A DNA stretch of 5,465 nt from Pseudomonadota bacterium (lineage in GTDB: Bacteria > Pseudomonadota > Gammaproteobacteria > Burkholderiales > Burkholderiaceae), in NCBI GenBank assembly GCA_021778935.1, contig JAJYBQ010000169.1:1-5465 (forward strand), written 5' to 3'. A program made the position numbers and the translations under genes. The stretch's first letter is position 1; the number at the start of each line of letters is the position of its first letter. Of the stretch, positions 1,691-5,259 are shown in pieces. The notes beneath the pieces were generated by a model. The model saw nothing but the letters and a program-made list of their open reading frames with translations. It did no database searches and was not told the origin of the DNA.

Positions 1691-2002
1691 CTACTTGACC
1701 CGCAGTTCGTTGTCGACCGTCTTCACGCCGGCCACCCCTCCGGCAACCCGGCCTGCGATGGCGACGCTGCGCGCCGAATCCACCGTGCCGGTCAAGTGGA
1801 CGACCCCCCGGAAGGTCGTGACGCTGATATCGAAGGATTTCAGGGTCGTTTCGTTGAAGATCGCGGCCTTGACCTTGGTCGTGACGACCGAGTCGTCGAG
1901 CATCTGGCCGGTGCTCTCCTGCGTCGAGGTGGCGGCGCACCCGGTCAGGGCTGCGAACGCGAAAGCGGACAGATACAAGGACATGCGACGACGCGTGTTC
2001 AT
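1691..2002 (-). CDS. BON-domain lipoprotein (OsmY-like, single BON)
   Basis: This is a 103-residue envelope protein. Residues 1-22 form a lipoprotein signal: basic MNTRRRM, a hydrophobic stretch, then lipobox Leu-Thr-Gly-Cys with Cys22 as the lipidated residue. A short Ser/Thr-rich linker follows. A single BON domain covers roughly residues 36-103, with the typical DDSVVTTKVKAAIF helix, a central FRGVVHLTGTVDS strand-turn and the closing VKTVDNELRVK. BON domains are thought to bind phospholipid or peptidoglycan in the periplasm, and OsmY-type members respond to osmotic or envelope stress. No other domain is present. The start is ATG 2000-2002, because an AGGAGG lies 6 nt upstream; an upstream in-frame start at 2017 has no such site. 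The gene lies just beyond the displaced tRNA-Thr half, so it was probably the gene next to that tRNA before the island arrived. Confidence 0.88.
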   Translation of the reverse strand: MNTRRRMSLYLSAFAFAALTGCAATSTQESTGQMLDDSVVTTKVKAAIFNETTLKSFDISVTTFRGVVHLTGTVDSARSVAIAGRVAGGVAGVKTVDNELRVK

Positions 2003-2008
2003 GGGATA

Positions 2009-2014
2009 CCTCCT
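2009..2014 (-). promoter_or_regulatory. Strong ribosome binding site of the BON gene
   Basis: AGGAGG on the minus strand, spaced 6 nt from ATG 2000-2002. It is the best Shine-Dalgarno in the window and fixes the start of the lipoprotein gene. Confidence 0.85.
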
Positions 2015-2061
2015 CAAGGGACAAGAATGTTTTTCTGCGATCGGCCGTTATCGAACGGGGC

Positions 2062-2107
2062 TGGTGCCGGCGGCGGGAACCGAACCCGCGACCTTCGGTT
2101 TACAAAA
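2062..2107 (-). repeat. Displaced 3' half of tRNA-Thr (putative attachment site)
   Basis: This 46-nt segment matches the 3' half of the intact tRNA-Thr at 4535-4580 in the same orientation, with 41 of 46 identical positions by my count. It starts at the CCA end (TGGTGCCGGC) and stops in the anticodon loop. The last 19 nt (2089-2107, CGACCTTCGGTTTACAAAA) are identical to 4562-4580, and similarity ends abruptly after that. There is no 5' half, so it is not a tRNA gene. The five differences include loss of the conserved A58 of the T loop, as expected for a copy no longer under tRNA selection. This is the classic footprint of a tyrosine-recombinase element that integrated at a tRNA anticodon loop. 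The function as an att site is inferred. Confidence 0.85.
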
Positions 2108-2140
2108 TCAAAACAAACCGCCGGAAGCCGTTCCCCATCG

Positions 2141-2170
2141 ATCCTGGATCTGCCAGGACTGTGCCAGGAT
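2141..2170 (+). repeat. Cluster of three short CCAGGA repeats near the island end
   Basis: TGCCAGGA occurs at 2151-2158 and again at 2162-2169, with starts 11 bp apart, or one helical turn. An inverted copy, ATCCTGG, is at 2141-2147. The first two form a hairpin (2142-2147 with 2153-2158, loop ATCTG). The cluster lies 34-63 bp inside the putative island from the displaced tRNA half, a position where arm-type integrase sites are often found. No T-run follows the hairpin, so a terminator for the ParA gene is a weaker reading. The rest of 2108-2232 shows nothing else I can name. Confidence 0.4.
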
Positions 2171-2232
2171 TTTAGGGGAATCCGGGGGAAAGGAGGTTCC
2201 CGCGGCGCTCATGCTTATGTCCGATCACCTCG

Positions 2233-3210
2233 CTAGCCCACGCCGGTGCGGCGAGCGATCGCCTTTACGAGTGCTTCGAAGTCCTCGTAGCACTGCTGCA
2301 CGTTCGCTTGGTGCGCCCCGATCGCACCATCCGCTGATGACAACGCAAACATCGGCTTGCGCGCTTCCATCGCCATGGGCATCAGGCTGCGGTAGTGTTT
2401 GATGCGGTGGATTTGATTGGCGTCGGTGGCCACGTCCGCACCGGCAGTCTGCCCCAGCACGCTTTCCCGATAGGCGCCGGGAAGTCGCGCCTGCCATTTC
2501 GCGTACGCCTTCGTCGGCCGCCCCAGGCGCTCCGCATGCTGCATCAGCACGTAACCGACGGGATCCATTTCCCCCTGCGGCAAGTCCCCCAGCGTGGTAC
2601 CGGCCTTCGGACGCGCCTGCGACCACGTGTCACGCCACTGGCGCAGGGTCGGGCCGAGGTTCTTGAGCCCCTGCAGAGAAAAGAGGTCCGGTGCAACCGG
2701 GACCACGACGTGACTGGACGCCACGAGCGCGGCGCGGTTGAGCGCGCCCAGATTCGGGCCGACATCGATCAGCACGACATCCGCCTGATGACGGTCCGCG
2801 GCATCCCGAATCACGCGCCAAAAGGCGGTCGTCACGCGAAACGCCCGCTCGCGGCCCTCGAGGCAGCGCGGCCACTCCGTCGAGAGATCGTCTTCGATCC
2901 GGGACAGCGCCAGGTCACCGACGAGCAACCCCAGACGATCGGCGATCAACTCGACGTGCGCGGGGCGGATGTCCCCCGTGCCGGCGAATAGCGGCGCGAC
3001 GGCCCCTTGCAGCGTCTGGGGATGATCGTCTTCCGGCCAGAACGCTTCGAGCCGCTCCTCGTCCAGCGCCATGGTCGACAGGTTCGACTGCGGATCGAGG
3101 TCCACCGCCAACACCCGGTAGCCGATCTGAGCGAACATCCAGGCGGTGTGGTACACGAGCGACGTTTTCCCGACACCGCCCTTGTTGTTGAAGAATGCGA
3201 TGCTGATCAT
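2233..3210 (-). CDS. ParA/MinD-family ATPase (orphan, no ParB)
   Basis: This 325-residue cytoplasmic P-loop ATPase belongs to the group that dimerises on ATP and often binds DNA or a surface to position cargo. The deviant Walker A is complete: NKGGVGKTS at residues 9-17, with signature lysine K10 and nucleotide-binding K15. The switch I/A' region is VDLDPQSNLS (36-45) and Walker B is VVLIDVGPN (145-153). The C-terminal half contains the ParA-typical SSHVVVPVAPDLFSLQGLKNL segment. There is no N-terminal helix-turn-helix, so it is a small, type Ib-like or orphan form. ATG 3208-3210 is chosen because GGGAG lies 7 nt upstream (3218-3222); ATG 3214-3216 is too close to that site. The start overlaps the stop of the AlbA_2 gene (ATGA), implying coupled translation. 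No ParB-like gene or obvious parS repeat follows. A plain plasmid-partition role is therefore unlikely, and the AlbA_2 protein is the probable partner. Confidence 0.9.
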   Translation of the reverse strand: MISIAFFNNKGGVGKTSLVYHTAWMFAQIGYRVLAVDLDPQSNLSTMALDEERLEAFWPEDDHPQTLQGAVAPLFAGTGDIRPAHVELIADRLGLLVGDLALSRIEDDLSTEWPRCLEGRERAFRVTTAFWRVIRDAADRHQADVVLIDVGPNLGALNRAALVASSHVVVPVAPDLFSLQGLKNLGPTLRQWRDTWSQARPKAGTTLGDLPQGEMDPVGYVLMQHAERLGRPTKAYAKWQARLPGAYRESVLGQTAGADVATDANQIHRIKHYRSLMPMAMEARKPMFALSSADGAIGAHQANVQQCYEDFEALVKAIARRTGVG

Positions 3211-4409
3211 GCGCATTCTCCCAGGACGATCGCCGCGACGAATCCCGGTTCGACCTCGAAACGCAGTCGCGACCCCAGCGCCTTGCGCGCAATCGCGATG
3301 CCCGCGCCGAAACGCTGCACATAGCCCAATGCACGCAGCGCTTCGGCGAGATTCGGGTTGCGATAATCCGTGACGCCGGGCTGGCCGAAATTCTCCGGCG
3401 TGACGCTGCCGAAAGGCCCTCCCGGATTGTGGATCTCGATCCGATCGTCGAACCAATAAACGCGCACCGGGGCGTTCGTGGCCTCATAGCTGCGGTGCAT
3501 GAAGGCGTTGCGGACAAGCTGCCGAAGCGCATCCATCGGGTACGCCTCCGTGCGGGATTCCTGCGCCGTGTCGGCGAACCGGACGCCGCGCAGGTTATGG
3601 GCTTCGAGCTTCTCTTCGAGCCGCCGAATCTGGTCGGCGACCGTGCCGTGGAGAACTGCCTCGTCGGCCACCGGCGCCGTGAGGTCGGCCCCTGCGAGTC
3701 GGAGGAACTGCGTGTACGCGCCGGGCAGCCAGTCGACCGGCACGTTGCCGATGACCAACAATCCAAGCACCGTCGGCCGTGGCGCGGTGTCGCTCAGCAC
3801 GAGTTTGGTCGCCGCCAGCTTTTGCTCGAAGCTTCGTTCGTTGGCGATGAGCACGTCCCGCGCGACTAATGAGGGCAGGTATTCCTGTTCGAAGCGCAGA
3901 CGATCCAGATCGTCGAGCGTGGCCTCCGCAACGGGTTGCACGTCGAATGGCCGATCCCGATGCCGCCTGCGCTCGTTGAGCACGCGCTCGTCTTGCGCGC
4001 TCGCGAGTCCGCGTCGCGGCCCCCATCGGACGTGGATGCGGCCCTTGAAGCGTGCAGGAGGGGAATCACACGGCCAGACCGTCATCACGGCGACGTCCTG
4101 GCCGTGCAGATGCCGTTTCTCGACGAGCAGCGTTGGCGGAGGAGCGATGTTTCCGTCCGTCTTGATGTCGGCAAGCTGGCGGAGCAATTCATCCGAAACA
4201 TCGAAACCCCCGACCGGCATACCGTCGTCGCGCGCACCGACAAATACCACGCCCGGTTCGCCGTGGCCTGGAAGATCGTTGGCGAACGCACAGACGGCCT
4301 CCCGCACGGTCGTTGGTGCCTCGCCCTTGAACGACTGCTTGCGTTCGACGCGATCCGACTCCAGATCGCCAAGCGCCGCTTCGAGTTCGGTATCGGTATA
4401 GGGTTTCAT
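3207..4409 (-). CDS. AlbA_2 (Schlafen-like) and HATPase_c_4 ATP-binding protein
   Basis: This is a 400-residue cytoplasmic protein of the 'putative DNA-binding / ATP-binding' class. An N-terminal AlbA_2 domain covers about residues 8-135, with VERKQSF (21-27) and CAFANDLPGHGEPGVVFVGARDDG (40-63). A middle linker follows. The C-terminal part carries the HATPase_c_4 signatures: RNAFMHRSY (300-308), DDRIEIHNPGG (321-331) and YRNPNLAEALRALGYVQRFGAGI (349-371). In this family the AlbA_2 domain is associated with nucleic-acid binding; relatives are annotated as regulators, and some Schlafen-like proteins occur in antiviral loci. The start ATG 4407-4409 has GAGGA 7 nt upstream (4417-4421). The longer open frame runs back through the tRNA gene and is not real. 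It is the first gene of a two-gene unit, overlapping the ParA gene by 4 nt. The domain call is strong; the biological role is unknown. Confidence 0.88.
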   Translation of the reverse strand: MKPYTDTELEAALGDLESDRVERKQSFKGEAPTTVREAVCAFANDLPGHGEPGVVFVGARDDGMPVGGFDVSDELLRQLADIKTDGNIAPPPTLLVEKRHLHGQDVAVMTVWPCDSPPARFKGRIHVRWGPRRGLASAQDERVLNERRRHRDRPFDVQPVAEATLDDLDRLRFEQEYLPSLVARDVLIANERSFEQKLAATKLVLSDTAPRPTVLGLLVIGNVPVDWLPGAYTQFLRLAGADLTAPVADEAVLHGTVADQIRRLEEKLEAHNLRGVRFADTAQESRTEAYPMDALRQLVRNAFMHRSYEATNAPVRVYWFDDRIEIHNPGGPFGSVTPENFGQPGVTDYRNPNLAEALRALGYVQRFGAGIAIARKALGSRLRFEVEPGFVAAIVLGECA

Positions 4410-4534
4410 CGGCCTTTCCTCATCCAACGCGCCACGTCGATGGTTCCCGGGTTGTCGCGCGGGGCGGGAGCGAACGCCGATGCCGGCGCCGCGGCGAGAA
4501 CCGGGGCGAGCCTCGTCGCCTCGGCGTGGATTCC
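4410..4534. other. Leader between tRNA-Thr and the AlbA_2 gene
   Basis: This is a 125-bp gap, very GC-rich except near the ribosome binding site (GAGGA at 4417-4421 on the minus strand). I find no convincing -35/-10 pair for the two-gene unit and no T-run terminator after the tRNA. The unit may therefore be transcribed by read-through from the tRNA-Thr promoter. Under the integration model this stretch belongs to the element. Confidence 0.4.
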
Positions 4535-4610
4535 TGGTGCCGGCAGAGGGACTCGAACCCCCGACCTTCGGTTTACAAAACCGCTGCTCTACCAACTGAG
4601 CTATGCCGGC
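4535..4610 (-). tRNA. tRNA-Thr (UGU anticodon)
   Basis: This is a 76-nt tRNA with encoded CCA (TGG at 4535-4537 on the plus strand). The acceptor arms GCCGGCA and TGCCGGC pair fully, and the D arm carries GCTC/GAGC. The anticodon loop TTTGTAA gives UGU, reading ACA and other threonine codons. The T arm is GGGGG-TTCGAGT-CCCTC with one G-U pair. Position 27-43 of the anticodon stem is a mismatch (G-A), the other four pairs being intact. It lies downstream of sspB on the same strand and appears to be the insertion target of the adjacent island, whose copy of the 3' half completes the gene. Confidence 0.97.
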
Positions 4611-4633
4611 ATACGCGTTCCGTTTCGCCGCGC

Positions 4634-4661
4634 AGTCTATCGCGCCGGGGTGCACGGTCAG
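4634..4661 (-). promoter_or_regulatory. Candidate sigma-70 promoter of tRNA-Thr
   Basis: On the minus strand, CTGACC (4656-4661, 4 of 6 to the -35 consensus) is followed after 16 nt by TAGACT (4634-4639, 4 of 6 to the -10). It sits 23 nt before the tRNA 5' end. The GC-rich stretch just after the -10 would fit a stringently controlled stable-RNA promoter. The match is moderate. The remaining bases of 4611-4683 show nothing else, and no clear sspB terminator. Confidence 0.4.
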
Positions 4662-4683
4662 CCATGCCCCCGTCCGGACTACC

Positions 4684-5259
4684 TCATTTCACTCGGGTCA
4701 GCCGCGGCCGATCGCCGGGTCCGGGTGGTCCCGCAGGTCCGGCCGGCGGCTCCGGCGGCAGGTCGTCCGGCGCCGGAGCCGCGTTGCGCACCGGAAAGGG
4801 CTGAACCTTCGCGCCCTCGGGGGCGGACACCGACGTCGGCACTGCCGCGAGGGCCGGTGGCGGTGTCGGGATCGCGGGCGGAGGCGATCCGGCCCGCGCC
4901 CCATCCGCAACGCCGTCCGGCGCCGCGGAACCGGACCGTTCGGACTGCGCAGAACCCTCGAAGGCCATTCCCTCGCCGTTTTCCCGCGCGAAAATCGCGA
5001 GGATGGATTCGATCGGGACGTAGACCTCCTGGGCCTTGCCGCCGAATCGCGCCTGGAACGTCATGGCGTCGTTGCCGATCTGCAGGCGGTTGGTCGCCAT
5101 CGGCGAGATGTTGAGCACGATCTGGCCGTCCTGGATGAACTCCCGGGGAACCCTCACGGCGCCGCCGACCTGCACGGCCACATGCGGCGTGTAGCCGTGG
5201 TCGTTGCACCACTCGTAGATGGCGCGGACGAGATAGGGTTTGGTGGATTGGGCGCGCAT
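4684..5259 (-). CDS. sspB: SspB, ClpXP specificity-enhancing adaptor
   Basis: SspB delivers ssrA-tagged and some other substrates to the cytoplasmic ClpXP protease, so it links ribosome rescue to degradation. The 191-residue product begins with the family's opening KPYLVRAIYEWCNDHGYTPH, and residues 1 to about 105 form the substrate-binding domain (VPREFI, VLNISP, ARFGG, VPIESILAIFARENG). A long Pro/Ala/Gly-rich, probably disordered linker of about 75 residues follows. The protein ends in RPRLTRVK, matching the C-terminal ClpX-binding tail. E. coli SspB is about 165 residues, so the linker here is longer. ATG 5257-5259 shares one base with the sspA stop (TGATG), pointing to translational coupling. 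The upstream extension of the frame overlaps sspA and lacks family similarity. Confidence 0.95.
   Translation of the reverse strand: MRAQSTKPYLVRAIYEWCNDHGYTPHVAVQVGGAVRVPREFIQDGQIVLNISPMATNRLQIGNDAMTFQARFGGKAQEVYVPIESILAIFARENGEGMAFEGSAQSERSGSAAPDGVADGARAGSPPPAIPTPPPALAAVPTSVSAPEGAKVQPFPVRNAAPAPDDLPPEPPAGPAGPPGPGDRPRLTRVK

Follow-up and report, generated by a model that had tools for sequence, protein, structure and literature searches.

A probable integrase-less islet with tRNA-Thr-derived ends and a Schlafen-ParA gene pair beside sspB in a Burkholderiaceae genome

Contig JAJYBQ010000169.1 of a Burkholderiaceae assembly (GCA_021778935.1) supplied the 5,465-nt stretch of DNA analysed here, which we call the window and number along its forward strand. 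Beside sspB it contains a tRNA-Thr gene, and a displaced copy of the 3' half of that gene encloses, together with the intact gene, a segment carrying one gene for a Schlafen-like AlbA_2 protein and one for a ParA-type ATPase. We conclude that this segment is probably a tRNA-targeted islet without an integrase, whose Schlafen-ParA module would be abortive-infection-like cargo. The initial annotation, made from the sequence alone, had described a two-gene tRNA-Thr island with both ends visible and no integrase, and this is confirmed here by ARAGORN, by repeat analysis, by Pfam and by an integrase search.

The anatomy of the islet is clear at base resolution. A single intact tRNA-Thr(TGT) gene, the presumed integration target, was identified in the window by ARAGORN (4535-4610, minus strand). 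Two copies of the tRNA-Thr(UGU) 3' half lie in equal orientation, the tRNA-proximal att-like copy at 4535-4580 and the displaced distal copy at 2062-2107 (minus strand); no other direct repeat in the window is as long (47 nt, 89%). An alignment of the two that begins at the CCA encoded in both and stops one base short of the anticodon loop shows identity at 41 of 46 nt, including all of the first 19 nt counted from the anticodon-loop end, counts and coordinates that the initial annotation had right; homology breaks off one base 5' of this 7-nt loop. The next-best match to the tRNA half in the window is 23/46, and the maximum over 500 mononucleotide shuffles was 27/46. Equivalent positions in the repeats are separated by 2,473 bp. 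The two genes in between are intact and overlap, and a 125-bp non-coding spacer adjoins each repeat (4410-4534, minus strand, from the tRNA 3' end to the AlbA_2 start, and 2108-2232, no strand assigned). These spacers are too short for an integrase; apart from the two genes, no remnant of another gene was noticed between the repeats, and no integrase came up in the window in a search with 13 integrase queries. Seven rows of that search which overlapped tRNA-Thr (in the window and in L105, L121, L124, L126, L127 and L135, L and G numbers being our handles for other loci and genomes) were dropped because the query frame from L098 runs through the translated tRNA.

The gene nearer the tRNA (3207-4409, minus strand) encodes a 400-aa protein in which a Schlafen-like domain is fused to a GHKL ATPase (SLFN_AlbA_2 and HATPase_c_4); beyond the HATPase domain Pfam gives no match. 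Comparison of an AlphaFold model with the PDB predicts a Schlafen-like fold, and residues E17, E22 and D45 are invariant in all 37 aligned sequences. In a comparison with the three-carboxylate site of SLFN13, which covered spacing only, E17 and E22 share the E-x4-E spacing of E205 and E210, and we regard the domain as a putative RNase. The second gene (2233-3210, minus strand) encodes a 325-aa ParA/MinD-type ATPase (AAA_31, 3.6e-28; CbiA, 1.5e-13) with a ParA-type Walker A motif, KGGVGKT; a Pfam scan of the six window proteins revealed no ParB family, and no parS search was made. An ATGA overlap joins the AlbA_2 stop to the ParA start, and the two are probably translationally coupled. Since sspB, the tRNA and the pair all lie on the minus strand, the pair may be expressed by read-through. 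No sigma-70-like promoter was found in 1950-4800, the spacer at 4410-4534 included. That range has a single terminator-like site, where shuffled sequence gives 2.1 on average; it falls within the ParA gene, leaving the spacer without one. The two genes are intact, and a dN/dS of about 0.1 shows strong purifying selection on them, which supports the earlier claim that the pair is a retained payload, kept by selection. A literature search, with preprints outside its scope, found no paper describing a Schlafen-ParA pair; the module is probably defensive.

Relatives of a pair-bearing genome show what else occupies this site. We fetched 41 sspB loci from a chosen part of 101 genomes, and in 38 of them sspB is followed, on its own strand, by tRNA-Thr(UGU), at more than 3 kb in L111 and L137; it is missing from that place in L108, L125 and L128. 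None of the 41 contains AlbA_2, ParA or the BON-domain gene of the window (E <= 1e-4). As seven of the 38 tRNA loci (L068, L101, L112, L119, L130, L131 and L132) have less than 2.5 kb to inspect on the tRNA 3' side, 31 provide a fair test of the pair's absence. In three of the 38 (L098, L109 and L110) a tyrosine integrase lies 87-163 nt from the tRNA 3' end. Of the 38, L109 in genome G390 alone has a second copy of the 3' half, 9,115 bp further on and matching at 39/45 positions, and here too the homology starts at the anticodon loop. This 9.1-kb island is the larger, integrase-bearing element that had been predicted for the same locus in relatives, and its shared site and repeat ends, together with the integrases adjoining the tRNA in L098 and L110, bear out the proposal of tyrosine-recombinase-type integration at the anticodon loop. 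The companion prediction, an empty site with sspB-tRNA-Thr about 60 bp from the BON gene, was not borne out, such a site being found in none of the 41 loci. As separate observations, the L109 island carries GGGAACCA repeats near both ends, and gene content on the 3' side of the tRNA varies among the relatives compared, with one gene cluster recurring in some: the region looks like an integration hotspot.

The islet need not have arrived in its present form. The best surviving alternative, which we nevertheless think unlikely, is that the pair and the DNA preceding position 2062 were acquired separately, so that the distal half marks a junction of two elements and the pair is the leftover of a larger integrase island after deletion of its middle. 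The left flank would suit such a history, with an IS630 transposase 3' end at 1-270 (family-tested) and, within 1-1611, frames that resemble, by appearance only, damaged genes for a sugar-nucleotide epimerase and a P-loop ATPase. Nor does the BON gene adjoin tRNA-Thr in the relatives examined: 51 of 61 have a BON-domain match, and in the five with both on one contig (G415, G438, G440, G381 and G453) the best match is at least 178 kb from sspB or the tRNA, so the left flank of the window is non-syntenic with them. Integrases at this tRNA in three of 38 relative loci also count in its favour, and decay to cis-mobilizable elements (CIMEs) with accretion is described in PMC5704250 for integrative and conjugative elements (ICEs) and integrative and mobilizable elements (IMEs). 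Against this history stand the integrity and strong conservation of both genes and the want of other noticeable gene remnants between the repeats.

The differences between the two tRNA halves bear on a second alternative. Two of the five are a compensatory change in the T-stem, and one falls on T-loop position 58, an invariant A in tRNA. The intact 3' half is 45/46 identical to the tRNA-Thr of relative L099, and the displaced half is at most 41/46 identical to that of any of the 38 relatives; the latter still folds with the tRNA 5' half, and the displaced half in L109 likewise differs by compensatory T-stem changes. Judged on these sequences, both the window and L109 would be consistent with an incoming element that carried a tRNA half acquired in another host, the displaced half having drifted afterwards. 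The folding, and a compensatory change implying descent from a tRNA that evolved as such, would also suit a decayed tandem tRNA-Thr gene, beside which the pair came to lie by homologous or illegitimate recombination with no site-specific recombinase. We consider this very unlikely, given that homology extends no further than the anticodon loop and nothing of a 5' half is recognisable, that L109 combines an equal break point and similar T-stem changes with an integrase, and that the fetched stretches of the 41 relative loci hold no second full tRNA-Thr.

Beyond this site the pair has a patchy distribution. AlbA_2 relatives at 59-88% identity were found in 37 loci, from proteobacterial genomes to metagenome-assembled genomes labelled Acidobacteria, Nitrospirae, Planctomycetes, Anaerolinea and others, labels that may include contamination. 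ParA accompanies AlbA_2 in 31 of these, being absent beside it in L018, L021, L022, L023, L033 and L036, the last of which ends at a contig edge. Within the order, ten of 399 genomes have an AlbA_2 match (E <= 1e-100), at least two of them being L001 and L003 again, and ParA adjoins it in all ten. The pair and sspB-tRNA-Thr are on different contigs in G001 (L002), G470 (L001) and G387; with its absence from the sspB loci of relatives, this makes the pair acquired cargo in the window. That it is instead an ancestral, domesticated pair of housekeeping genes downstream of tRNA-Thr, as strong purifying selection and a strand shared with sspB and the tRNA might suggest, is highly improbable and contradicted by its absence from the site in all 41 relative loci (short flanks in seven included), its patchiness in the order and its relatives at 59-88% identity under the labels of several phyla.

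Some of these relatives lie in defence operons, and the pair elsewhere can ride in operons of the bacteriophage exclusion (BREX) type. L002 (3102-16521) is a BREX locus in which the pair lies between PglX and BrxL, in the order BrxC, PglX, pair, two proteins without a family match and BrxL, and the AlbA_2 start overlaps the PglX stop. The L012 operon (2431-14729) runs from a DUF499 ATPase through a protein with a weak PglZ C-terminal match and a DUF1156/N6_N4 methylase to AlbA_2, ParA, a 166-aa protein without a family match and an SNF2 helicase, a layout that we tentatively label BREX-related or Hma-like. Methylase- or helicase-type genes, recognised as blastp clusters and tested for family only in L002 and L012, occur near the pair in 11 of the 37 loci (L001, L002, L004, L005, L012, L014, L018, L021, L023, L025 and L029); no BREX gene was seen in the 5.5-kb window. 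Other neighbours tested are mixed: among them, GmrSD in L022 and HipA_C in L015 resemble defence or toxin proteins, unlike the NAD kinase-like protein in L006 and the phosphomannomutase in L028. Integrase-like frames lie near the pair in two loci, L023 and L029.

The tRNA ends are not a general attribute of the pair. A relaxed T-arm scan, which recovered both window ends as a control, found no tRNA end within 1.5 kb of the pair in any of the 37 other loci, 22 of which offer 1.5 kb on both sides and 27 of which offer 300 nt; this rules against the pair being everywhere a mobile unit with such ends. A test for flanking repeats, with the 47-nt repeat of the window recovered as a control and with L007, L013, L032, L034 and L036 left out as ending near the pair, found repeats in eight of 32 loci (L003, L004, L018, L022, L025, L027, L028 and L033), none recognised as tRNA. 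In L025 the pair is bracketed by a helicase gene upstream of 10001 and a degraded, 182-nt copy of the 3' end of that gene behind ParA, about 100-277 nt after 12177; at 77% identity this copy is too diverged for a fresh att repeat. Carriage by plasmids or phages is likewise ruled against, all matches to P0002 being below 60% identity in plasmids (76 records, with the 20 listed all below 30%) and in phages (22 records, again with the 20 listed all below 30%); among viral contigs, the two patterns used brought up no confirmed relative.

In proposing how the islet arose and what it does, we suggest that a tyrosine recombinase inserted a 2,473-bp unit at the anticodon loop of tRNA-Thr, an integration that would restore the tRNA gene and leave the displaced 3' half at the far end. 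The integrase would then have been lost, or might be supplied in trans; the islet would accordingly be a mobile island in reduced form or else a hitchhiker. Once expressed, the module may sense a trigger through its two ATPases, ParA included, and sensing would unleash cleavage of tRNA or another RNA by AlbA_2, so that the module would most likely act as an abortive-infection effector in defence against phages. A bolder version, which we rate as rather unlikely, makes the segment a minimal, satellite-like defence islet: a module detached from BREX-type operons and moving on its own, with nothing more than its tRNA-Thr ends and the trans-acting integrases of other sspB-tRNA-Thr elements, while ParA serves specifically to activate or restrain the RNase.

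Some lesser features of the window may be recorded here. The distal spacer contains two direct copies of TGCCAGGA, at 2151 and 2162, which might, speculatively, be recombinase arm sites. The exact pattern occurs in none of the 399 genomes of the order, which rules it out as a traceable recombinase signature, and it matches eight viral contigs, a bare count with no chance level attached. Foreign composition of the islet found no support, its G+C equalling that of the left flank. In that flank, near the start of the ATPase-like frame, an inverted repeat at 732-798 has 33-nt arms, 79% complementary and 1 nt apart, around a TTGCATATTGGAA palindrome.

The islet provides a base-resolution case of a defence-like accessory pair lying apart from BREX-type operons, on a carrier without its own recombinase. 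It further identifies sspB-tRNA-Thr(UGU) as a site of integration in a beta-proteobacterial group, and it presents a two-protein Schlafen-ParA module small enough for direct testing.

Among known systems, the nearest in position is the 9.1-kb island of L109, which has the same tRNA, the break at the anticodon loop and a displaced 3' half in common with the islet, but differs in its tRNA-adjacent integrase, in lacking the AlbA_2-ParA pair and in its short end repeats. In PMC4383910, Islander islands are defined by an intact tDNA, a displaced fragment in the same orientation, a length of 2-200 kb and an integrase inside. The islet shares the intact tDNA, the displaced 3' fragment and, at 2,473 bp, the length; having no integrase, which that definition requires, it is not classed as an Islander island. 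CIMEs, best known from streptococci, offer another parallel. As described in PMC5704250, they resemble the islet on anatomy alone, in that it keeps both att-like ends without integration or transfer genes, although it is only 2.47 kb long with two genes. Derivation from an ICE or IME would be expected of a CIME; integrases do occur at this site in three of 38 loci, but the tRNA repeat is the only sequence that those loci were seen to share with the islet.

For the payload, the closest counterparts are the Schlafen RNase-histidine kinase-wHTH effectors of BREX (PMC12839542), in whose main text the word ParA does not appear. An AlbA_2/Schlafen domain with a C-terminal GHKL ATPase is common to both, and some close relatives of the islet AlbA_2 lie in BREX-type operons; the islet protein differs from those effectors in residing in a tRNA islet and in being coupled to a ParA-type ATPase.
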